A DNA stretch of 50,483 bases from Chloroflexota bacterium. Lineage in GTDB: Bacteria > Chloroflexota > Anaerolineae > J102. The stretch's first letter is position 1; every line of letters starts with the position of its first letter. A program made the position numbers and the translations under genes. Under the pieces are notes generated by a model, which had not been told where the DNA came from, made no database searches, and worked only from the letters and a program-made list of their open reading frames with translations. The stretch covers positions 1-50,483 of the forward strand of contig JAADII010000192.1 in the NCBI GenBank assembly GCA_013151415.1, read 5' to 3'. Positions 22,727 to 34,219 of this stretch are shown here, in pieces.

Positions 22727-23422
22727 GTGGTGCTTTCTCCGACCCAAACCCGCGCTTCGGGTATTGACCTGTTTCAAAGAGTCCCCTATTTCGCGTCGCA
22801 GCCACGCGAGGTTTTGGAAATGCTGGCCGACGCAGCGATTGCCAAGTATTATCCGGCGGGTTCGGTGATTTTTACGGAAGGAGAAATGACCCGAGCGCTC
22901 TATGTGGTGGATTCGGGGATCGTGAAAATATGCCGCATAGGCAAAGATGGGCGCGAGCATATTCTCCACTTCATTTATCCGGGCGACACCTTCAACGACG
23001 TGGCCGCCATGGATGGCCAACCTAACCCGGCCACAGCCATTGCCCACACTGACGCCACCACCTATTGCATCTCTCGCTCCGATTTGCAATGCATCGCCCA
23101 ATGCCATCCTTCGGTGGCCTGGGCTTTGCTCGAAAGCATTGCTCGTCGCACGCGGCATCTCATCGGCGTGGTGGAGGATTTGTCTATGCGCAATGTGCGG
23201 GGACGTTTGGCCCATTTGCTCTTGGAGGAGGCCGAGGCGCAGCGGAGCCACGCCATCCCGCGCATGCTCACTCAGCAAGAAATGGCCAGTCGGCTGGGCA
23301 CGGTGCGCGAAATGGTGGGACGGGCTTTGCGGGGTCTTGCAGCCGATGGCATCATCGAGTTCAATCGCCATCACATTGTCATCCTGGATCCTGAGCGTCT
23401 GGCCGCGGAGGCGGAGGTGTAG
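22727..23422 (+). CDS. CRP/FNR-family transcriptional regulator
   Basis: This 231-aa regulator has a cyclic-nucleotide-like effector domain (YYPAGSVIFTEGEMTRALYV, then GREHILHFIYPGDTFNDVAA) and a C-terminal winged helix with LTQQEMASRLGTVREMVGRA. The recognition helix has Arg-Glu-x-x-x-Arg spacing (VREMVGR), as in E. coli CRP (SRETVGR), rather than the VETISR of FNR, predicting TGTGA-N6-TCACA-like sites. No cluster of N-terminal Cys is present, so a direct FNR-type oxygen sensor is unlikely; heme or another effector, as in DNR/NnrR regulators, is possible. It starts at GTG (22727). Its position just before the nirS block makes it the likely local activator. Confidence 0.88.
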   Translation: MVLSPTQTRASGIDLFQRVPYFASQPREVLEMLADAAIAKYYPAGSVIFTEGEMTRALYVVDSGIVKICRIGKDGREHILHFIYPGDTFNDVAAMDGQPNPATAIAHTDATTYCISRSDLQCIAQCHPSVAWALLESIARRTRHLIGVVEDLSMRNVRGRLAHLLLEEAEAQRSHAIPRMLTQQEMASRLGTVREMVGRALRGLAADGIIEFNRHHIVILDPERLAAEAEV

Positions 23423-23669: not shown

Positions 23670-23921
23670 ATGCCATCCACCGCACCCCAACCGAGAATCG
23701 ATTCCGGCCTTTGCAATGGCTGTCTACAGTGCGTCGAAGTATGCCCCACCCAAGCGCTGGATATACTCAACGGGAAGGCTTATTTGCGTTATCCCGAACG
23801 CTGCACATATTGCACCGCGTGCGAAGACATTTGCCCAGAAAACGCCATCGCTCTGCCATTTTTGATTGTGATGGCGACTCCAGCAATACAAACGGTGAAC
23901 AATGATGAGACAATGGGGTGA
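23670..23921 (+). CDS. 2[4Fe-4S] ferredoxin
   Basis: This 83-aa electron carrier has two cluster motifs, CNGCLQCVEVCP and CTYCTACEDICP, each with the C-x2-C-x2-C-x3-CP spacing of bacterial ferredoxins. It lies between the CRP-type regulator and nirS and probably supplies electrons to that system or to its cofactor assembly; this is inference from position. The start is unclear: ATG at 23670 has only a weak ribosome site, while an AAGGAG at 23626-23631 points to a CTG at 23637 in the same frame that would add 11 residues. A hairpin overlaps the stop codon. Confidence 0.85.
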   Translation: MPSTAPQPRIDSGLCNGCLQCVEVCPTQALDILNGKAYLRYPERCTYCTACEDICPENAIALPFLIVMATPAIQTVNNDETMG

Positions 23922-23944
23922 TGGCTAACCATCATCCCATTGTC
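23909..23944. repeat. 16-bp hairpin overlapping the ferredoxin stop codon
   Basis: GACAATGGGGTGATGG (23909-23924) pairs with CCATCATCCCATTGTC (23929-23944) with a single G-T wobble and a 4-nt CTAA loop. No T-run follows directly. It may be an attenuator or an mRNA-processing/stability element between the ferredoxin gene and nirS. Its words resemble the GATGG/GACGATGG palindromes found elsewhere in this window. Confidence 0.8.
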
Positions 23945-24006
23945 TGAACTTTTGTTCACGTCCAACTCAAACTCATTTGCGCCTTACTGCAAGGAGGAGG
24001 CCAAAA

Positions 24007-25800
24007 ATGAAACGCACATTTTTTATCATCACCCTGGCGTTGCTGTTCGCGGTGGCGCTTGGCGCGTGCGGCGGTCAAGCCACCCCAACGGAGCCGCCCC
24101 CCACGCCCACCGAGGTTCCGCCAACGCCCACCGAAGTTCCCCCAACCCCAACGGAGGTCCCCCCAACCCCCACCGAGGTTCCTCCCACTCCCACGCCTGA
24201 GCCTGAGCCAACAGCTACGCCCGAAACCGTAGCTGCGGCGCCGGCCGGTCAGGAGGCCCCGCTCTTGAGTGAGGAGGAATTCGAGAAGGCCAAACAGATC
24301 TACTTTGATCGTTGCGCCGGTTGTCATGGCGTGTTGCGCAAAGGCGCGACCGGGCCCGCGCTCACACCCGATAAAACCGAAAGTTTGGGCGAGATGGCCT
24401 TGCAGGTCACCATCTTCAACGGCACCGATGCGGGCATGCCCGACTGGGGCAAACAGGGCGTTCTGACAGAAGAAGACACCGCCATTTTGGCCAAATACCT
24501 GCTCATGGAGCCGCCCGACCCGCCTGAAATGTCCATGGCCCAAATGAAGGAGACCTGGAACGTCATTGTTCCGCCCGAAGAGCGACCCACCGAGCCTCAA
24601 CATGGCCGCAATTGGAAGAATTTCTTCTCCGTCACTCTGCGCGATGCAGGGCAGGTGGCCATTATCGATGGCGACACGAAAGAGGTGGTGAGCACGGTGG
24701 ATACAGGCTACGCGGTGCACATCTCCCGCATGTCGGCCACGGGCCGCTACGTTTACACCATCGGTCGCGATGGCAAGGCCGTGCTCATTGATCTATGGAT
24801 GGAAAAACCCGACAAGGTCGCCGAGGTCCAGGTCTGCTACGACGCTCGCTCCATCGATACGAGTAAATATAAGGGCGAGCTGGGCGATTTCTACGACAAG
24901 TATGCCGTGGTGGGCTGCTATTGGCCGCCTCACTTCGTGATTCTGGATGGCGCCACGCTCGAGCCCATCAAGATTGTGAGCACCCGCAGCTACACCTACG
25001 ACACCGAGGAATTCCATCCCGAACCGCGCGTGGCCAGCATTGTCGCTTCTCGCTTCAAGCCCCAGTGGATTATCAATGTCAAGGAGACGGGGCAGGTCTG
25101 GTTGGTGGATTACTCCGATCCCAACAACCCCACCATCAAGATGATCGAAGCTGAACTGTTCCTGCACGACGGCGGTTGGGATGCAACCGGACGCTACTTC
25201 CTGGTTGCGGCCAATGCTCGCGACAAAGTGGTTGTCATCGACGCCCAAGAGGAGAAGTTGGCCGCGATCGTGCGCACCGGCACGAAGCCGCATCCCGGAC
25301 GCGGGGCCAATTTCGTCGATCCCGAATACGGCCCGGTCTGGTGCACGGTCCACATCGGTCAGGGTTTGGTCTCCTGCATCGGCGCCGATCCTGACGGAAA
25401 CCCCGACAACGCCTGGAAGGTGGTGCGCGAGATCCAGCTTCCCAGCGCGGGTTCGCTCTTCATCAAGACGCATCCCGAAAGCCCCTGGATCTGGGTCGAC
25501 TTGACGCTCAGCACCGACGAAAAGCTCCAGCGCTCGGTTTGCGTCATTCCTAAGAGCGATCCCACCGAGGTCGACAAGTGTTGGGAGATCGGCGACTATG
25601 GCCGTGCAGTGCATTTCGAATACAACGAGGCTGGCGACGAGGTTTGGGTCAGCCTTTGGGGTCGAGCCGATCAACCTGGCCAAACCGGCGAGATCGTAAT
25701 CTACGACGACAAGACCTTGGAAGAGAAGGCTCGAATTCCGGATCTGGTGACTCCCACCGGCAAGTTCAACGTCACCAACACGGTCGGCGATCTCTACTAA
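24007..25800 (+). CDS. nirS: Lipoprotein cytochrome cd1 nitrite reductase
   Basis: NirS reduces nitrite to nitric oxide. The 597-aa protein starts with a lipoprotein signal (lipobox ALGAC, Cys21). A linker of PPTPTEV repeats (residues 28-64) follows, then a cytochrome c domain (CAGCH, Cys103-His107) and the eight-bladed heme d1 propeller from about residue 195. Key d1 features are conserved: FSVTLRDAGQVAIIDGDTKE, the axial His238 in GYAVHISRMSA, and the active-site His429 (KPHPGRGANF) and His449 (WCTVHIGQG). SLFIKTHP and VTPTGKFNV complete the fit. Both active-site histidines argue for a true reductase. Six extra Cys occur in the d1 domain (277, 304, 446, 457, 512, 525). A strong AAGGAGGAGG ribosome site precedes it. 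The d1-heme synthesis genes are not in the window. Confidence 0.93.
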   Translation: MKRTFFIITLALLFAVALGACGGQATPTEPPPTPTEVPPTPTEVPPTPTEVPPTPTEVPPTPTPEPEPTATPETVAAAPAGQEAPLLSEEEFEKAKQIYFDRCAGCHGVLRKGATGPALTPDKTESLGEMALQVTIFNGTDAGMPDWGKQGVLTEEDTAILAKYLLMEPPDPPEMSMAQMKETWNVIVPPEERPTEPQHGRNWKNFFSVTLRDAGQVAIIDGDTKEVVSTVDTGYAVHISRMSATGRYVYTIGRDGKAVLIDLWMEKPDKVAEVQVCYDARSIDTSKYKGELGDFYDKYAVVGCYWPPHFVILDGATLEPIKIVSTRSYTYDTEEFHPEPRVASIVASRFKPQWIINVKETGQVWLVDYSDPNNPTIKMIEAELFLHDGGWDATGRYFLVAANARDKVVVIDAQEEKLAAIVRTGTKPHPGRGANFVDPEYGPVWCTVHIGQGLVSCIGADPDGNPDNAWKVVREIQLPSAGSLFIKTHPESPWIWVDLTLSTDEKLQRSVCVIPKSDPTEVDKCWEIGDYGRAVHFEYNEAGDEVWVSLWGRADQPGQTGEIVIYDDKTLEEKARIPDLVTPTGKFNVTNTVGDLY

Positions 25801-25817
25801 ACGCGCCTGTGCGCAAC

Positions 25818-25860
25818 CTGTCGAGCCTCCGGATGCATTTCGGAGGCTCGACAGTCTCTT
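25818..25860 (+). terminator. Terminator after nirS
   Basis: A perfect 14-bp stem (CTGTCGAGCCTCCG, 25818-25831, with CGGAGGCTCGACAG, 25841-25854) with a 9-nt loop is followed by TCTCTTT. It separates nirS from the oxidase operon, which has its own promoter box. Confidence 0.8.
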
Positions 25861-25870
25861 TGCTTTGAAA

Positions 25871-25913
25871 TGGGACTTTTGTCACAGTCATTGTATTCAT
25901 CTTGTGTCATAAT
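25871..25913 (+). promoter_or_regulatory. CRP-type activator site and -10 upstream of the oxidase operon
   Basis: TGGGA-CTTTTG-TCACA (25871-25886) matches the CRP consensus TGTGA-N6-TCACA at 9 of 10 positions. A -10 CATAAT lies at 25908-25913. With a start about 7 nt further on, the site centre is near -41.5, the classic class II activator position. The core GACTTTTGTCACAG (25874-25887) is nearly the same as the ferredoxin-gene box. The recognition helix of the nearby regulator fits this consensus. Confidence 0.65.
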
Positions 25914-26009
25914 TGCACCGGTGGCTGCGCGCGCGGTTGCAGCCGGTTGGGTGTGATTGATGATATTTATAATTCGTTCCGCAATGCGCTCATTAAGGAG
26001 GTCATCGTC

Positions 26010-26186
26010 ATGACAGAAACGAAAGACATGGATGTCCCGCAGGAGGATTTGGAGGAAATCCCCAAGGGACAGCAGCGTTTTGACAATGTATACCTGCTTC
26101 TCATTTTGTCCTTGATCATTCCCTTCTTGATGTACAACCTGTGGGGCATGATCGAGATCGCGTCGCTCCCCAACTTCGTTCCGTAA
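26010..26186 (+). CDS. Small single-span membrane peptide of the oxidase operon
   Basis: This 58-aa peptide has an acidic N-terminus (MTETKDMDVPQEDLEEIPK) and one hydrophobic helix (VYLLLILSLIIPFLMYNLWG, residues 28-47). The start at 26010 has an AAGGAGG ribosome site; a longer frame back to 25902 is rejected because it crosses the promoter region. It lies 10 nt before the subunit II gene. By position it could be a small accessory subunit, as subunit IIa is in ba3-type oxidases; no family was recognised. Confidence 0.75.
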   Translation: MTETKDMDVPQEDLEEIPKGQQRFDNVYLLLILSLIIPFLMYNLWGMIEIASLPNFVP

Positions 26187-26196
26187 AAAGGAGGCA

Positions 26197-26721
26197 ATGA
26201 TGCTCGCACCCCAACGCGTTTGGTGGCAACCTCTCAGCCGCATGGAAAGAAGCTGGGTGATTGTCGCTTTTGTCTTATGTTTGTTTTTCACCGCGATGAT
26301 GCCCTTCTGGTTTGTCGTAGGGCGGCAAAATGTGCCTGTCACCACGTATCGCGTGGATCCGAAAGTGTATGAACAGGTGGTCAATGATTTCATAGCCGAG
26401 TATAAGGTGGATGAGATCAACGGCATTCCGGTGGTGGAGCCGCCGCCCGGTGGTGAGATTTACATGCTGGCGCGGCAGTGGCAGTGGTCGCCCATTTTGA
26501 AGCTCAAGAAGGGCGAGACATATAAATTGCATCTTTCGTCGACGGACATCTTGCACGGTTTTTCACTGCAACCCACCAACATGAACTTGATGGTGATGCC
26601 CGGTTATGACTATGTCGCCGAGATCACGCCAACGCAGGTTGGCGAGTACGCCATTGTGTGCAATGAATACTGCGGCATTGGGCATCATTTGATGGTCACC
26701 AAACTGATCGTCACCGACTAA
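26197..26721 (+). CDS. CuA-containing heme-copper oxidoreductase subunit II
   Basis: This 174-aa subunit has one N-terminal membrane helix (residues 19-42) and an exported cupredoxin domain. The CuA site is complete: His120 (DILHGF), and C155-N-E-Y-C159-G-I-G-H163-H-L-M166. This is the B-family-like single-helix form, not the two-helix A-family form. It accepts electrons from a cytochrome c or cupredoxin and passes them to subunit I. AAAAAGGAGG precedes two adjacent ATGs (26197, 26200). The gene sits between the 58-aa peptide gene and the subunit I gene in a clear operon. Confidence 0.92.
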   Translation: MMLAPQRVWWQPLSRMERSWVIVAFVLCLFFTAMMPFWFVVGRQNVPVTTYRVDPKVYEQVVNDFIAEYKVDEINGIPVVEPPPGGEIYMLARQWQWSPILKLKKGETYKLHLSSTDILHGFSLQPTNMNLMVMPGYDYVAEITPTQVGEYAIVCNEYCGIGHHLMVTKLIVTD

Positions 26722-26737
26722 AGGAGGAGACTCGATT

Positions 26738-28477
26738 ATGGCTGTTGCTACTATGCCTGCACCCTCCGCCAAAGCGGATTTTCGCACCTGCCCTGTCACG
26801 GGTCTCAAGGTGGACCTGGCGGCCGAGCGGCTGATCATCGTCAATGCGGTGGCGGCAGTGGTGTTTCTGCTCATCGGCGGATTTTACGCGCTGTTGTTGG
26901 CGCTTACGCGCTGGCAAGCGATCCATTTGCTGCCGGCGGATTGGTTCTATCGCGTGCTTACGGGCCATGGGTTCGACATGCTGGTGGCCTGGATCGTCTT
27001 TTTTGAAGTGGCGGGGCTCTATTTTGGCGGAGCCGTCATGCTAAACGCCCGCCTCGTCGCTCCGAAAGTGGCCTGGCTGGCTTATATCTTGATGGTGGTG
27101 GGCGCGGTGTTGGTCAATGTGATGACCCTCGTCGCCCCCTTCGATCAGGGCGCGGTCATGTTCACCTCATATGTGCCCCTCCAGGCTCACCCGCTTTGGT
27201 ATCTGGGCGTCATCCTCTTTGCTGTGGGCGCTCTGGTCGCGGTGTTTATCTTCTTCGCCACCATCATCACGGCCAAGAAAGAACGCACATACGAAGGCTC
27301 TATGCCCTTGGTGGCGTTTGGCCTTATGGCGGCCGCCATTATCGCCGTCTACACATTGCTTTCCGGCGCGGTGGCCTACGTTCCCACATTCTTATGGTCG
27401 ATTGGCATTTTGCCCTCGATTGATCCGGCGTTTTACCGCAACTTTTTCTGGAGTTTTGGCCACCCCGCACAGCAGATCAACCTGGCCGCGATGGTCGCCA
27501 TTTGGTATGGCTTGGCTGCTGTGACTGTGGGCGCAAACCCGGTGAATGAGAAGCTCTCTCGCTTCGCCTTCATTCTCTACCTGTTCTTCATCAACCTGGG
27601 TTCGGCCCACCACCTGTTGGTCGATCCCGGCTATAGCTTCGCCTGGAAAGCGACCAACACCTCCTACGCCATGTACCTGGCCGTGTTGGGCAGCCTCATC
27701 CACGCGTTCTCCATTCCTGCGGCCGTCGAAGTGGCGCAACGCCGTCGAGGCTTCACGAGCGGCCTCTTTGGTTGGTTGAAGAATGCGCCCTGGCGCGAAC
27801 CGGGCTTCTCGACATTGGTCATATCGATGGTCCTGTTCGGCTTTATTGGCGGCACTACGGGCGTGGTCATCGGCACCGAGCAGATCAACCTGTTGGCGCA
27901 CAACACCATGCGCTTGCCCGGCCATTTCCACGCCACTGTGGTTGCGGGCACCACCTTGGCATTCATGGGCTTCAGTTACTACCTCATTCCGCTCATTTTC
28001 CGCCGCAAGTTGCGGTTGGTGAGTTGGGCCAGCTGGCAGCCCTATATTTTTGGCCTGGGCATGGCCCTGGTTTCCATTGGCATGATCGTGAGCGGCCTGC
28101 AGGGCGTTCCTCGCCGCCATTGGGACATCACCTTCTCGGGCGCGCCGATTGATGTGACGTTGCCCGGCGCTACGCAGATCAGCCTGGCCATCATGGGTGT
28201 TGGCGCACTCATCGCCATTGTCGGCGGCATTATGTATCTGGCCGTCATCTTGGCTTCGGTGCTAACAGGCCAGAAAGAAGAGGCCCGGCGCTTGACGCTG
28301 GTGATGTCTGATCAAAACCCCCTGGTGGAGCACGCTTTGCCCAACGTAGGCAAAGAGCCGGAGGGGAAGGAATCTCCTCGCGGCACGCTGGTCATCGGCG
28401 TTATCTTCATCGTCACCTTTATGATATACTATCTCAGCAACTGGTGGTTGCTCGGTCGAGGCTGGTTTATCCGCTAA
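26738..28477 (+). CDS. Heme-copper oxidoreductase subunit I lacking the active-site Tyr; candidate NO reductase
   Basis: The 579-aa catalytic subunit has about 13-14 membrane helices. All metal ligands are visible: His77 (TGHGFD, low-spin heme), His242 (FGHPAQQ), His291-His292 (SAHHLL) for CuB, and His396 and His398 (LPGHFH) for the hemes. Oxygen reductases have H-P-x-V-Y, with the Tyr cross-linked to the CuB His; here the sequence is H242-P-A-Q-Q246, so that Tyr is Gln. Loss of this Tyr is a hallmark of NO-reducing members of the superfamily, including CuA-type enzymes related to the B family. The adjacent nirS supports an NO reductase. Oxygen reduction is not excluded. A C-terminal helix follows residue 545. 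The ribosome site is AAAGGAGGAG. Confidence 0.85.
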   Translation: MAVATMPAPSAKADFRTCPVTGLKVDLAAERLIIVNAVAAVVFLLIGGFYALLLALTRWQAIHLLPADWFYRVLTGHGFDMLVAWIVFFEVAGLYFGGAVMLNARLVAPKVAWLAYILMVVGAVLVNVMTLVAPFDQGAVMFTSYVPLQAHPLWYLGVILFAVGALVAVFIFFATIITAKKERTYEGSMPLVAFGLMAAAIIAVYTLLSGAVAYVPTFLWSIGILPSIDPAFYRNFFWSFGHPAQQINLAAMVAIWYGLAAVTVGANPVNEKLSRFAFILYLFFINLGSAHHLLVDPGYSFAWKATNTSYAMYLAVLGSLIHAFSIPAAVEVAQRRRGFTSGLFGWLKNAPWREPGFSTLVISMVLFGFIGGTTGVVIGTEQINLLAHNTMRLPGHFHATVVAGTTLAFMGFSYYLIPLIFRRKLRLVSWASWQPYIFGLGMALVSIGMIVSGLQGVPRRHWDITFSGAPIDVTLPGATQISLAIMGVGALIAIVGGIMYLAVILASVLTGQKEEARRLTLVMSDQNPLVEHALPNVGKEPEGKESPRGTLVIGVIFIVTFMIYYLSNWWLLGRGWFIR

Positions 28478-28562: not shown

Positions 28563-29336
28563 ATGTTTGCAGCCTTCTTACTTGGTTTGTTTGGCAGCGT
28601 GGGCCACTGCGTGGGCATGTGCAGCGCAGTGGCCGTTCTGTTGGGGCGCACTGGCGACGCCCGCGGTTGGCGCGTCTTGCTGCTGCACAGCGGTCGTCTG
28701 ACCACCTATGCCTTGCTGGGCGCGGTGGCCGGCGCGTTGGGTTATGCATTGACGGGCATGGCTCAATATAGTGTGATGGGCGAACATCTGCATAAACGTC
28801 TGGAATGGCCAGCATTGCAATGGCTTCAGGGTCTGTTGGCGTTGGCGACCGCCGCCGCCGCCCTCTATCTCGCGGTGGCCTTGCTTGGCCGCGCGCCATC
28901 GCCCGAGCTGTTGTTTTCGCGTATGACTCGGTGGTGGGGAGGCGCAATGCGTCGCGTGCGCGCCGGTGAGCTCGAGCGGGGCGATGGCGCGACTCGCAAA
29001 GGATTGCGCGGGCTGGTTCACGTCTATGCGCTCGGTTTGTTGTGGGGGCTTTTGCCTTGCGGACTGGTGCTCACGGCCTTGCTGTTGGCCGCGGTGGCCG
29101 CCGCACCCATCGCCGGCGCCGCAACCATGTTTGCGTTTGGTTTGGGCACCATACCCATCACTTTGGGCATGAGCGTCGCGCCGCGACACCCGGGCTTGCG
29201 CATGCGGGCCAGCGCCTGGACTCGGCCCCTGGCGGCGGGAATTGTGCTTCTATTTGGCGTGCAGATGGCGCTGCGAGGACTGGCTGCCTGGGGCTGGATA
29301 CCGCATACGAATCTGGGAGGGTTGGCCCTATGGTGA
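28563..29336 (+). CDS. SafE/TauE-type (CcoH/DsbD-like) membrane protein
   Basis: This 257-aa protein has about six membrane helices. The first carries GSVGHCVGMCSAVAVLLG and a later one has LWGLLPCGLVLTALLLA. Paired Cys-containing helices of this type are typical of the SafE branch of sulfite exporter TauE/SafE proteins, often encoded next to CcoI copper ATPases and heme-copper oxidases. The likely role is in copper or thiol handling during oxidase assembly, not sulfite export. No ribosome site is obvious. The stop codon overlaps the start of the ATPase gene by 7 nt, implying translational coupling. Confidence 0.82.
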   Translation: MFAAFLLGLFGSVGHCVGMCSAVAVLLGRTGDARGWRVLLLHSGRLTTYALLGAVAGALGYALTGMAQYSVMGEHLHKRLEWPALQWLQGLLALATAAAALYLAVALLGRAPSPELLFSRMTRWWGGAMRRVRAGELERGDGATRKGLRGLVHVYALGLLWGLLPCGLVLTALLLAAVAAAPIAGAATMFAFGLGTIPITLGMSVAPRHPGLRMRASAWTRPLAAGIVLLFGVQMALRGLAAWGWIPHTNLGGLALW

Positions 29337-31801
29337 AAGAAGCGGTTTCCTGCTCGCTGTGCGGTTTGCCAACCTATCACCCCATTCACGACGACGCGGG
29401 CGTAGCATATTGTTGTCCGGCCTGTCGCGAGGTGAGCGCTTTGCTGGCTACGGACGAAGCAAAACCCAACTCAGCCCCCATCGCCTCGGATCTCGCCAAC
29501 GCGGCCACCGCCTCTATTTCGCTTGGCGGATTGTGGTGCCCTTCCTGTTCGTGGCTCATCGAGGAGTCTTTACAGCGCGCCAATGGCGTGTTGGATGCTG
29601 AAGTCAACTTCATCCAGCGCGAAGCGCGCATCATCTACGATCCCGAGATCATCGATCCCAAACAGGCCGCGAAGCGGGTGAGACGCTTGGGCTATCGGGC
29701 CTGGCTACCCGACGAAAGACCATACGATGAAGAGGAGGGCATGTGGAATCGTCTGCTCATCAACGGCTTGTTGGTGATGCAGATTATGATGATGAGCTTC
29801 TTTATCTACGGTCGCGATTGGCTAGGCCTTTCCTCGCCCGAGACAGAGTGGCTGACCGATTTCTTCAATATCATCTTGTTTGTGACGAGCATTCCCGTGA
29901 TGCTCATGTTGGGTTTGCCCATATTGCGAGCAGGCATGGCCAGCCTGATTCGCGGGCGCCCCAATATTCATACGCTTATCGCCTTGGGCGCTTTTTCCGC
30001 TTTCGCGCTCTCTGTATATCATTTGTGGCTTGGTGAAGGCCGCGTTTATTTCGATACGGCCGCGATCCTGCTTTTCCTGGTGTCGGTTGGACGCTGGCTG
30101 GAGATGCGGGCGCAGAAGACCAGCTCTGAGGCTGTGGAGCGGCTTTACGAGAAGATGCCGGACGAAGCTGTTTTGGTCACGCCCGAAGGCGAACGTCGCG
30201 TGCCCACGCATGAATTGCAGCCCGGCGCGCGGGTGCGAGTGCGCCCAGGTGAGCGTTTTCCGGTCGATGGCATTGTGGCCGCGGGCGGAGGCGATGTGGA
30301 TGAAAGCCTGCTTACGGGCGAACCAGAACCCATGGCGCGCGGGGTGGGTGATCGCGTAATGGCCGGCACTGTGAGCCTGGATGGCGGCTTTGAGGTTATT
30401 GCTTCGGCTGTGGGCGCAGAAACTGTGGCCGGGCAAATTGGCCGGTTGTTGCACCAGGCTTTGTGGCAACAGGCGCCCATTCAACGCCTGGCCGACAGAT
30501 TGGCCGCATGGATGGTTCCTTCGGCCACTGTTTTGGCCCTTCTGGCCTTGGGCTATTGGACTTATGCGGTGGATTTCGAGCGCGGGCTTATTGTGGCGCT
30601 TTCGGTGTTGCTCATCGCCTGCCCTTGCGCTCTGGGCATTGCCACGCCTCTGACCCTTTGGCTCTCCGTGGGTCGCGCCGCGCGTGCGGGCGCGATCTTG
30701 CGCAATGCGGGCGCATTGGAGCGATTGGCGTCGGTGACGCGGGCGGTTTTCGACAAGACCGGCACCCTCACTCGGCTTCCTATCCGGCTTCAAGCCATGG
30801 TTGCTGAGGAGATGGACGAAACCGAGTTTTGGCGACGGGTCGCGGCGGCCGAGTCGTTTTCTGAGCACCCGTTGGCTCAGGCTGTGGTTGCAGGCGTCGC
30901 CCGCCCAACGTCGGCGGCTCGCGAGGAACAGCATCATACGCGCGCGCGCTCGTCGTCAACAGAGACCGAGGAGGCGTCGCCTTCTCTTCCGCAAGTGAGC
31001 GATTTTCGGGCCTTGCCCGGCAAAGGCGTGACCGCGCGCGTGGAGGGGGAGCAAGTTTGGGTGGGAAGCCGAAGATTGATGGTCGAGCAAGAGCTAACGT
31101 TTCCTTCCAGCATCGAGATGAAAGCTCGCGCCTGGCAAGACGCGGGGTTCACGGTGGTGTATGCGGGATGGAATGGCCGCGTCCGGGGAGCGTTGGCTTT
31201 GGGTGAGGATTTACGCCCCGAAGCGGAGGAGGCGTTGGCCGAGCTAAAGGCTTTGGGTCTGACCGTGAGCGCGCTCACGGGTGACGACGCCGCGGCCGGT
31301 CGTCGTTATGAAGCATTGCTGGGCATTCCGGTGTTGGCCGAACAGCGTCCCGAGGATAAGCTGGCTTATCTCGAGGCGGCGGGCGAAGGCGCGTTGATGG
31401 TGGGCGATGGCATCAACGACGGACCGGCCCTTGCCGCGGCCGATGTGGGCGTGGCCGTGCTTCATGGCGCGGATGTGGCTCGCGCCGCAGCCGACGCGGT
31501 GTTGCTCAACGATGATCTTCGTCTGGTTCCGTGGTTGGTGCGCCTCTCGAGAGTGACCATGCGCAAAGTGCGCCAGAATCTGGCCTGGGCCTTTGTCTAC
31601 AATATTTTTGGTTTGGGGTTGGCGGTGAGCGGACATTTGCAACCCGCGATCGCAGCCCTACTCATGGTTCTCAGCAATCTTGTTGTCACCACCAACGCCT
31701 TGCGTTTGCGTCGCTTCGATCCCGACCGTTGGCAGCTGCCTGATGAGGAGGAGCCTTCCTCGCCCGGCGCTGCGCTTTCCCCTGCTCCGAGCAAGGGCTG
31801 A
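29330..31801 (+). CDS. CcoI/CtpA-like copper-translocating P1B-type ATPase
   Basis: The 823-aa pump moves Cu(I) across the membrane, here probably to load the CuA/CuB sites of the neighbouring oxidoreductase. Residues 8-32 carry a Cys-rich segment (CSLCG and CCPAC) like the N-terminus of CcoI/FixI. A heavy-metal domain follows with CPSC (70-73). The transport site CPCALGIATP is near 430, the phosphorylated Asp in DKTGTLT near 475, the ATP-site HP in SEHPLAQAV, and GDGINDGPALAAADVGVAV near the end. TGEPEP is the phosphatase loop. The start at 29330 has GGGAGG and overlaps safE; a much longer frame from 29042 is rejected. The C-terminal tail is Ser/Pro-rich. Confidence 0.93.
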   Translation: MVKEAVSCSLCGLPTYHPIHDDAGVAYCCPACREVSALLATDEAKPNSAPIASDLANAATASISLGGLWCPSCSWLIEESLQRANGVLDAEVNFIQREARIIYDPEIIDPKQAAKRVRRLGYRAWLPDERPYDEEEGMWNRLLINGLLVMQIMMMSFFIYGRDWLGLSSPETEWLTDFFNIILFVTSIPVMLMLGLPILRAGMASLIRGRPNIHTLIALGAFSAFALSVYHLWLGEGRVYFDTAAILLFLVSVGRWLEMRAQKTSSEAVERLYEKMPDEAVLVTPEGERRVPTHELQPGARVRVRPGERFPVDGIVAAGGGDVDESLLTGEPEPMARGVGDRVMAGTVSLDGGFEVIASAVGAETVAGQIGRLLHQALWQQAPIQRLADRLAAWMVPSATVLALLALGYWTYAVDFERGLIVALSVLLIACPCALGIATPLTLWLSVGRAARAGAILRNAGALERLASVTRAVFDKTGTLTRLPIRLQAMVAEEMDETEFWRRVAAAESFSEHPLAQAVVAGVARPTSAAREEQHHTRARSSSTETEEASPSLPQVSDFRALPGKGVTARVEGEQVWVGSRRLMVEQELTFPSSIEMKARAWQDAGFTVVYAGWNGRVRGALALGEDLRPEAEEALAELKALGLTVSALTGDDAAAGRRYEALLGIPVLAEQRPEDKLAYLEAAGEGALMVGDGINDGPALAAADVGVAVLHGADVARAAADAVLLNDDLRLVPWLVRLSRVTMRKVRQNLAWAFVYNIFGLGLAVSGHLQPAIAALLMVLSNLVVTTNALRLRRFDPDRWQLPDEEEPSSPGAALSPAPSKG

Positions 31802-31936: not shown

Positions 31937-32053
31937 CAAAAAATGTCAACGCCTGACGGGGAGACAACGCACCCGTGCTTATGGCGCAAAATTCCCTGTT
32001 CCAAACGCCACATTCCATCCTCAATCTCCAATTGTCACCTTCTATTCATCAAA

Positions 32054-34219
32054 ATGTCTAAACAACGTCGCATCTACGCAGCTCGTCGTCGTCTGAGAGC
32101 GCTCGAACGCGCCTGGACGGCTGTGGAGCGTCTGGTGGACCGGGCGACGGCCGTGGTCGCGCCCCTGCGTCCTTACAACCCGTTCTATCATCTGGGCACA
32201 CTCACCATTTTCCTGCTCATCTATCTGGCCGTAACCGGGCTTTATCTCACGATTTTCTATCGCCCTGGCAGCGATCGAGCCTATGTCAGCGTAGCGGGCA
32301 TTAGCGCCACATGGTTTGGGTCGCTGATGCGCACCTCGCATCGATACGCGTCCGATATGCTCATTCTGGCCACCTTTCTCCACGCCTTGAAGATGTTTCT
32401 CAGTGATCGATTTTGGGGCAGTCGTTGGTTGGCCTGGACTTCAGGTTGGGTGATGGTGATCGTGTTTTGGCTCATCGGCACGATGGGCTATTTCCTGGTG
32501 TGGGATCAGGCCGCGCAATGGCTGTTGGAATATTCCATCGATTTGGTGAAAGGGCTTTTTGCTCTTTCTTTTATCGAGCCTCAGTCGGTCGCGCGCACCT
32601 TCTCCTTTTTTGTGATCATTCTCTTTTTGCATGTGTTCGTGCCCATCATGCTGATTATTGGCGTGATCGTGCATGTGTTGCGCCTGGCGCGAGCGCGTTA
32701 CTGGTCGCCGCGCTGGTTGATGATCCTGACGGTGATCGCGTTGGTGGCCGTGTCGTTGGCGTGGCCGGCCACGAGCAACCCGCCCGCGGATTTCACCAAA
32801 CTGGTGGAACGCGTGAATCTCGATTGGTGGTATTTGGGTTTCTTGCCCCTTAGCGCCTATTTGGGCAATCCTCTTTTCTGGGGACTTTCCATAGCGCTCA
32901 TCGCCGTGTTGTTGTTCTTGCCCTGGCTCGCGCGCGGCCAGCATCTCGGCCCCGCTCATGTCATCAATCCCAAATGCACAGGTTGCGCTTTGTGCGCGCG
33001 CGAATGTCCGTATAACGCCATTGTGATGGAGCACCGTGATGACGATACGCCATATAGCTCCATCGCCATCATGAAGCCTAGCCTATGCACCGGTTGCGGC
33101 ATCTGCGTGGCGGCCTGTGCATACGACGCCATCGAATTGGAGGCATTGCCCTCGGCCGTGGTGCGGCAAGACCTGCGGCGCACCATGCGTCGCGCCTATA
33201 CGGGACCCGAGTCGCCGGTGGTGATCTACGCCTGCGATCGCCATGTGGCTTTGGGCACCATTCCGCCTCTCGAGGACTCGACGCCGGTCGATTCGGACGC
33301 CGCGGGCGTCTCTCTTATTCAGGCCGCGTTGCCTCCGCGGGTGACGCGCGGCGTGTGGAGAGACGATTCAGGAGAACGCCATCCTGTGATGGTGGCGCAA
33401 ACCCCCTGCATGGGCATGTTGCATCCAACCTGGGCGGCCGAGACCATCGAGGCCGGCGCAGCCGGCGCCATCATGGTGACATGCCCTGTGGATGATTGCG
33501 CTTTCCGCGAAGGACCGCATTGGGTCGAGCATCGGGTGCGCAGCCGGCGCACGTTGCGCAAGGGCAACACGCACTTGTTGGAGATCGCGCCGGGCAGCCG
33601 CAAGGCATTGGTTTCCTTGTGGTCGCAAATGGTGGCCGGCGGCGAACAGGCCGAGGCGTTGCGCCACGCGCCCACGGTGGTTCGTTTGAAGCAAAAGATG
33701 GAGCCCGTAAAGACCACGCTGTTGGGACAGGCGCGTCATTTGTTGCCCGGACTGGCGCTTCTGGTGTTGATTGTGGCGGTCTCGGCGCTTTTCTGGCAAC
33801 CCGCGACTTTCCCCCTGCCCGAACAAGCCCAGATCCGGGTGGGCATCAAGCATAGCGGCAAACGTTTGGCCGCGGCTCAAGACCTGCCGCCCGAGGTGAC
33901 TGCCAAGTTGCCCGAAAATGTCGATCCCTCCACCGTGTTGGGTGGCGAACGTTTCCCGGTGCAGCTGCGTCTTTTTGTGGATGGCGAGCTTGTGTTGGAA
34001 AACACCTATCGACCCAGCGGCTTGCGTCGCGAGGGCTCCAGCGCCGGGTTGGAGACATGGTGGTTGCCCCCCGGCGAACACGATATCGAGATCATGCTCA
34101 ATGACGATGGCGCGAATTGGCGCACGGTGTACTCGCAACGCGTGACCATTCAGCCGGGCGAAGCGTTGATCCTGTATTACGACGATGATAACGATGTGTT
34201 TGTCAAGGTCAAGCCATGA
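32054..34219 (+). CDS. Cytochrome b / 2[4Fe-4S] / FlpD(MvhD)-like fusion protein
   Basis: This 721-aa redox protein has four parts. Residues 40-215 form a cytochrome b core with four heme ligands: His96 (SHRYAS), His110 (LHALK), His193 (LHVFVP) and His207 (VHVLR), spaced 14 residues in both pairs as in bc1. Two or three further helices reach residue 291. A 2[4Fe-4S] domain has Cys308, 311, 314, 318 and Cys345, 348, 351, 355. A FlpD/MvhD-like domain has CDRHV (394), PCMGMLHPTW (452) and TCPVDDCAF (477, 482). A last membrane helix (565-581) carries a C-terminal soluble domain. It probably exchanges electrons between the quinone pool and a soluble partner. The start is MSKQRRIYAA; a longer frame from 31943 is rejected. 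Confidence 0.85.
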   Translation: MSKQRRIYAARRRLRALERAWTAVERLVDRATAVVAPLRPYNPFYHLGTLTIFLLIYLAVTGLYLTIFYRPGSDRAYVSVAGISATWFGSLMRTSHRYASDMLILATFLHALKMFLSDRFWGSRWLAWTSGWVMVIVFWLIGTMGYFLVWDQAAQWLLEYSIDLVKGLFALSFIEPQSVARTFSFFVIILFLHVFVPIMLIIGVIVHVLRLARARYWSPRWLMILTVIALVAVSLAWPATSNPPADFTKLVERVNLDWWYLGFLPLSAYLGNPLFWGLSIALIAVLLFLPWLARGQHLGPAHVINPKCTGCALCARECPYNAIVMEHRDDDTPYSSIAIMKPSLCTGCGICVAACAYDAIELEALPSAVVRQDLRRTMRRAYTGPESPVVIYACDRHVALGTIPPLEDSTPVDSDAAGVSLIQAALPPRVTRGVWRDDSGERHPVMVAQTPCMGMLHPTWAAETIEAGAAGAIMVTCPVDDCAFREGPHWVEHRVRSRRTLRKGNTHLLEIAPGSRKALVSLWSQMVAGGEQAEALRHAPTVVRLKQKMEPVKTTLLGQARHLLPGLALLVLIVAVSALFWQPATFPLPEQAQIRVGIKHSGKRLAAAQDLPPEVTAKLPENVDPSTVLGGERFPVQLRLFVDGELVLENTYRPSGLRREGSSAGLETWWLPPGEHDIEIMLNDDGANWRTVYSQRVTIQPGEALILYYDDDNDVFVKVKP

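Follow-up and report, generated by a model that had tools for sequence, protein, structure and literature searches.

Gene content of the locus

The window, by which we mean the whole stretch of 50,483 nucleotides that was analysed, comprises positions 1-50,483 of the forward strand of contig JAADII010000192.1, from the genome of a Chloroflexota bacterium (Anaerolineae; J102) that is 97.7% complete (GCA_013151415.1; labelled G000). All features of the window described here lie on this strand. Pfam and alignment identify a nirS gene at 24007-25800 (ATG at 24007, stop at 25800), whose product, a cytochrome cd1 nitrite reductase, carries a signal/lipobox sequence (LGAC) and a Pro-Thr linker. The protein matches Pfam Cytochrom_D1 (PF02239) with an E value of 5e-129 (430 bits) and P. 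aeruginosa NirS (1bl9/1nir) with 613 bits, contains both the d1 and the heme c domains, and keeps the heme c histidine, the d1 proximal histidine and both distal histidines; judging by these residues and matches, it is a true cytochrome cd1. It has a single CxxCH heme c motif and is without a C1 domain.

Upstream of nirS lie a gene for a Crp/FNR-family transcription regulator (22727-23422; Pfam cNMP_binding and HTH_Crp_2), which is a candidate regulator of the cluster, and, between it and nirS, an open reading frame for a small 2x[4Fe-4S] ferredoxin (23670-23921; Pfam Fer4, E 1.6e-15). A perfect palindrome, TGAAC-N4-GTTCA (23945-23958), is the sole exact match to this motif in the window and is a weak candidate for a Crp/FNR-type operator 5' of nirS. 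It is not kept 5' of nirS in seven other loci, and TTGAT-N4-ATCAA does not occur at the promoters, and a conserved FNR/NNR-type operator was rejected on these grounds. The palindrome (TGAACTTTTGTTCA) is overlapped by a long inverted repeat (23901-23952), the 24-nt arms of which are 83% complementary.

Downstream of nirS, we found three genes for a putative heme-copper enzyme: subunit IIa (26010-26186; 58 aa, with one transmembrane helix, recognised from its sequence and by tblastn in related loci), subunit II (26197-26721; one N-terminal transmembrane helix) and subunit I (26738-28477; 579 aa), spaced 10 and 16 bases apart in this order. The spacing between nirS and the gene for subunit IIa is 209 bp and contains a strong hairpin (25818-25854; 16-bp stem, weak T tail, folding z -6.2) that is terminator-like or may stabilise the mRNA. 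Comparable hairpins lie 3' of nirS in four related loci (L063, L092, L105 and L109). Because this terminator-like hairpin separates nirS from the nor genes, a single nirS-nor transcript is not established. The earlier note, which had missed both the hairpin and subunit IIa, spoke of one operon, a description that the window does not support, though in another locus (L104) the gap between nirS and the nor genes is only 15 bp.

The three subunit genes are followed by genes for a DsbD_2-type membrane protein (28563-29336; Pfam PF13386), a copper-type P1B ATPase of the CopA/CcoI kind (29330-31801, with the start as read from the open reading frame; TIGR01511 and TIGR01525 above cut-off) and a fusion, assigned by Pfam, of cytochrome b, 2x[4Fe-4S] and FlpD (MvhD)-like domains (31943-34219). 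The order IIa, II, I, DsbD_2, CopA and cytochrome b/Fe-S/FlpD is repeated in most Chloroflexota loci of this kind, with all three of the accessory genes kept, and in the majority of related loci tblastn finds subunit IIa 5' of subunit II. The DsbD_2-type protein is probably a maturation factor or one for copper or cytochrome assembly, and the ATPase is probably the copper source for CuA and CuB.

Active-site residues of subunits I and II

Subunit I retains six metal-binding histidines (77, 242, 291, 292, 396 and 398), and its residues 242-246 read HPAQQ in place of HPxVY, with Gln245-Gln246 replacing Val-Tyr and Gln246 encoded by CAG at 27473-27475. Subunit II, aligned to Thermus ba3 subunit II by phmmer, has the complete CuA set of H120, C155, C159, H163 and M166 (C-x3-C-x3-H-x2-M). 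The histidines, the altered motif and the codon had been given in the earlier note and are all exact, and it had rightly described the CuA site as complete and the pair as lying downstream of a cytochrome cd1 nitrite reductase. As the HPxVY motif with its cross-linked tyrosine is absent, we rejected a straightforward identity as a B-family (ba3) O2 reductase.

The Gln245-Gln246 pair is invariant in all 108 aligned homologues of subunit I, from more than nine phyla; these were collected by similarity to the subunit I of the window, and the invariance is to be read as a description of the clade and not as an independent test. Since it extends to 108 homologues, Gln246 is not a chance substitution. 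The bins with the pair are labelled Chloroflexota, Acidobacteriota, Aquificota, Nitrospinota, Myxococcota, Pseudomonadota, Verrucomicrobiota, Actinomycetota, Hydrothermarchaeota and others, some of which are possibly binning errors. Further residues specific to the clade, including E90, N248, E271, Y281, N307, Y310 and H322, are different in seven Tyr-bearing B-family enzymes. Tyr257 is invariant in the clade and aligns with Tyr248 of Thermus thermophilus ba3, a proton path residue.

An enzyme that has lost the cross-linked tyrosine could still be a divergent B-family (ba3-like) O2 reductase, working without this residue or with a tyrosine from another helix, in which case the adjacency of nirS would be incidental or would serve microaerobic respiration. 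The retention of the CuA site and of the six histidines is compatible with this, as are Y281 (helix VII) and Y310 (helix VIII), two tyrosines that are unique to the clade and invariant in 108 of 108 sequences. Against it, the position of the C-family tyrosine (285 in subunit I) is occupied by Ile or Leu in every one of the 108 sequences, by which an identity as a C-family (cbb3) O2 reductase was also rejected. The cbb3 tyrosine lies in helix VII, six residues ahead of the histidine pair, and thus corresponds to Ile285. For a tyrosine supplied from another helix, which the earlier note had named as grounds for refutation, the answer is therefore partial: there is none at the C-family position, but Tyr281 and Tyr310 are invariant. 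The AlphaFold model, which includes residues 246, 281 and 310, has a mean pLDDT of 80.

Homologues and phylogeny of subunit I

Of 301 Chloroflexota genomes searched, 21 contain a close homologue of subunit I, and 80 further loci came to light when 84,980 species genomes were scanned; homologues also occur in named plasmid records of Thermus thermophilus, Thermomicrobium roseum and Defluviimonas. The best NCBIfam matches of subunit I, CtaD_CoxA and QoxB, are both far under cut-off. Among solved structures, the closest by sequence are ba3-type oxidases, to which the fold is near as well, a resemblance that speaks for the O2 reductase reading; in the comparison with solved structures, A- and B-family oxidases tie, and the families are not separated by it. 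The trees point the other way. In a 68-row tree, a branch with an SH-aLRT value of 99 sets the Gln-Gln rows apart from the B- and A-family O2 reductases, and in a 33-row tree from which columns 245-246 had been removed, the Gln-Gln group received bootstrap/SH-aLRT values of 100/99 and the Tyr-bearing B-family values of 99/97; these placements are relative to references that include no named bNOR, gNOR or nNOR sequence, nor the Ardenticatena and Natronomonas reference sequences by name. Moreover, joining the Gln-Gln group with the Geobacillus b(o/a)3 sequence was rejected by the AU test (p 0.0135). The two trees rule out a placement among O2 reductases, and the comparison proposed in the earlier note thus came out with the clade outside the Tyr-bearing B-family.

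A glutamine at the site of the cross-linked tyrosine is the published diagnostic of the eNOR family, Chloroflexi included (PMC8756737), and because of this we regard the enzyme of the window as a new member of eNOR. The family itself is already described and has already been reported in Chloroflexi. The suggestion of a non-canonical NO reductase is therefore supported by the Gln-Gln clade and by this diagnostic, and is narrowed to a known family. The name bNOR/sNOR was considered and set aside, since an asparagine would be expected at the tyrosine position (PMC3475470) where Gln246 is found.

Other heme-copper genes were seen beside eNOR genes. In eleven loci (L116, L120, L121, L122, L124, L126, L127 and L130-L133), a second heme-copper-like subunit I (Pfam COX1; for example L127:4304-5785 and L121:10732-12315) adjoins eNOR, with the heme histidines kept and the CuB histidine pair replaced by LF, PY or IY at 291-292. 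In the tree, this CuB-less paralogue branches as the sister group of eNOR, a position that is unsure given the long branches. At L055:1725-3344 (minus strand), a subunit I with HTLVN, that is with Asn for Tyr, adjoins an eNOR and shares 57% identity with a relative encoded on the plasmid of Thermomicrobium roseum; going by this motif, it is probably an Asn-type NO reductase, and two NOR types would hence share one locus. In the source genome, two adjacent small open reading frames of 138 and 152 aa (G000:C1:24739-25417; L164:7710-8583) give sub-cut-off matches to different parts of Pfam COX1, in swapped order.

Association with nitrite reductases and genome content

The source genome encodes one A-family and two B-family oxidases, all Tyr-bearing and located away from eNOR, which can serve O2 reduction. 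No cNOR/qNOR (norB), nirK or nosZ was found in the genome, and no narG above cut-off, which extends to the whole genome the earlier note's remark that nirK and norBC are missing nearby. Across loci, nirS is found directly upstream of eNOR in L063, L092, L104, L105, L109, L132 and L133 and downstream of it in L122; L132 and L133 are archaeal bins labelled Hydrothermarchaeota. The two genes also share a locus on Thermus thermophilus plasmid pTF24b, and in genome G088 about 1 kb separates nirK from eNOR. Among the 301 Chloroflexota genomes, nirS or nirK is present in 15 of the 21 with eNOR and in 34 of the 280 without it (Fisher p 5e-9, uncorrected for shared descent). Such repeated pairing with nirS or nirK, the presence of Tyr-bearing oxidases elsewhere in the genome and the report of eNOR enzymes, which are B-family-related, among the biochemically characterised NO reductases (PMC11388526) all argue against O2 as the substrate, and together with the separate clade they leave the O2 reductase reading very improbable. 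At the same time, the fact that nirS and eNOR are immediate neighbours in Chloroflexota as well as in archaeal bins lends genomic support to NO as the substrate.

Where the NO comes from is less firmly indicated. The enzyme might reduce NO as a detoxifying or aerobic scavenger uncoupled from NirS, with NirS lacking heme d1 or having another task. This would suit the hairpin between nirS and the nor genes, the lack of an adjoining nirS in most Chloroflexota eNOR loci, and the 6 of 21 Chloroflexota eNOR genomes that have neither nirS nor nirK. It would also suit the complement of heme d1 genes: in the source genome there is no NirF-like match besides NirS itself, no PF17805 match and only a weak, sub-threshold PF22451 match for NirDLGH, and a NirJ match under its cut-off only. 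Similarly, no strong NirDLGH match was found in the nirS genomes of L063, L092, L104, L105, L109, L132, L133 and L082. Given that neither NirF nor NirDLGH, the canonical genes for heme d1, was detected, we cannot be sure that NirS delivers NO, and we place less confidence in the activity of NirS than in the reduction of NO. However, NirS has all its catalytic histidines, the adjacency of nirS and eNOR is repeated in several lineages, and the source genome contains a TIGR04053 radical SAM gene, which adjoins nirS in Thermus. Weighing these points, we consider an uncoupled scavenger unlikely, and we favour an enzyme supplied by the adjoining NirS.

Proposed function of the cluster

The three genes at 26010-28477 thus very probably specify an eNOR made up of IIa, CuA subunit II and catalytic subunit I, a B-family-related NO reductase that is fed NO by the adjoining NirS. 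The cluster probably turns nitrite to NO and then to N2O, which is the best reading because cNOR/qNOR, nirK and nosZ were not found in the genome. While the sequence features, the clade, the gene neighbourhood and the content of the genome are observed directly, we infer NO as the substrate, the electron route, coupled expression and the physiological reduction of nitrite to N2O. In this scheme, NirS would make NO from nitrite, and electrons would enter the reductase at CuA, probably from a periplasmic cytochrome c or a cupredoxin, pass to the low-spin heme (His77/His398) and reach the high-spin heme (His396) and CuB (His242/291/292), where two NO would be converted to N2O, with Gln246 in place of the cross-linked tyrosine of O2 reductases. 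The DsbD_2-type protein and the copper ATPase may mature the metal sites. The cytochrome b/2x[4Fe-4S]/FlpD fusion is kept beside the eNOR genes of Chloroflexota and is a candidate electron donor or input protein; less similar relatives of it accompany the eNOR of archaea and Gammaproteobacteria. We hypothesise, as a speculative and rather improbable extension, that the fusion serves eNOR as a dedicated module for electron input, which would make the cluster a self-contained, quinol- or ferredoxin-fed respiratory unit for nitrite-to-N2O reduction, joined in other lineages by the CuB-less paralogue.

Enzymes of the eNOR family are usually misannotated as cytochrome oxidases. Because standard profiles call subunit I a cytochrome c oxidase, producers of N2O, a greenhouse gas, that are of the eNOR kind are missed in surveys.

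Comparison with known systems

The closest known counterparts are the eNOR enzymes of Chloroflexi SURF MAG 42 (PMC8756737) and of Ardenticatena maritima (PMC4653789), which come from the same phylum and share with the window the glutamine in place of the active-site tyrosine and the CuA subunit II directly 5' of subunit I. In Ardenticatena maritima the eNOR is likewise paired with a nitrite reductase, which there is nirK in the same operon (PMC4653789), whereas for SURF MAG 42 no further denitrification gene is reported near eNOR or nirS, and in the window nirS lies directly upstream of eNOR. The bNOR/sNOR enzyme of Bacillus azotoformans (qCuANOR; PMC3475470) is also ba3-related, with a CuA subunit and, encoded next to subunit II, a small membrane peptide, but in it an asparagine and not a glutamine replaces the tyrosine. 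T. thermophilus ba3 (1EHK) shares the fold, the six histidines and the CuA site, and differs from the enzyme of the window in having the cross-linking Tyr237 for Gln246, Trp for Asn248 and Thr312 for His322; moreover, the enzyme of the window has an extra conserved Glu90.

As for the nitrite reductase, the C1-C2-NirS proteins of Chloroflexi (PMC8756737) have the same cytochrome cd1 core and C2 heme c domain as NirS of the window, which, unlike them, has no C1 heme domain. The survey of Chloroflexi NirS reported no C2-NirS that lacks the C1 domain, and the NirS genes that it examined had no further denitrification gene as a neighbour (PMC8756737). Both statements are corrected here: the window shows that the C1 fusion is not always present in Chloroflexi NirS, and its nirS, together with several C1-bearing nirS genes, directly adjoins eNOR.
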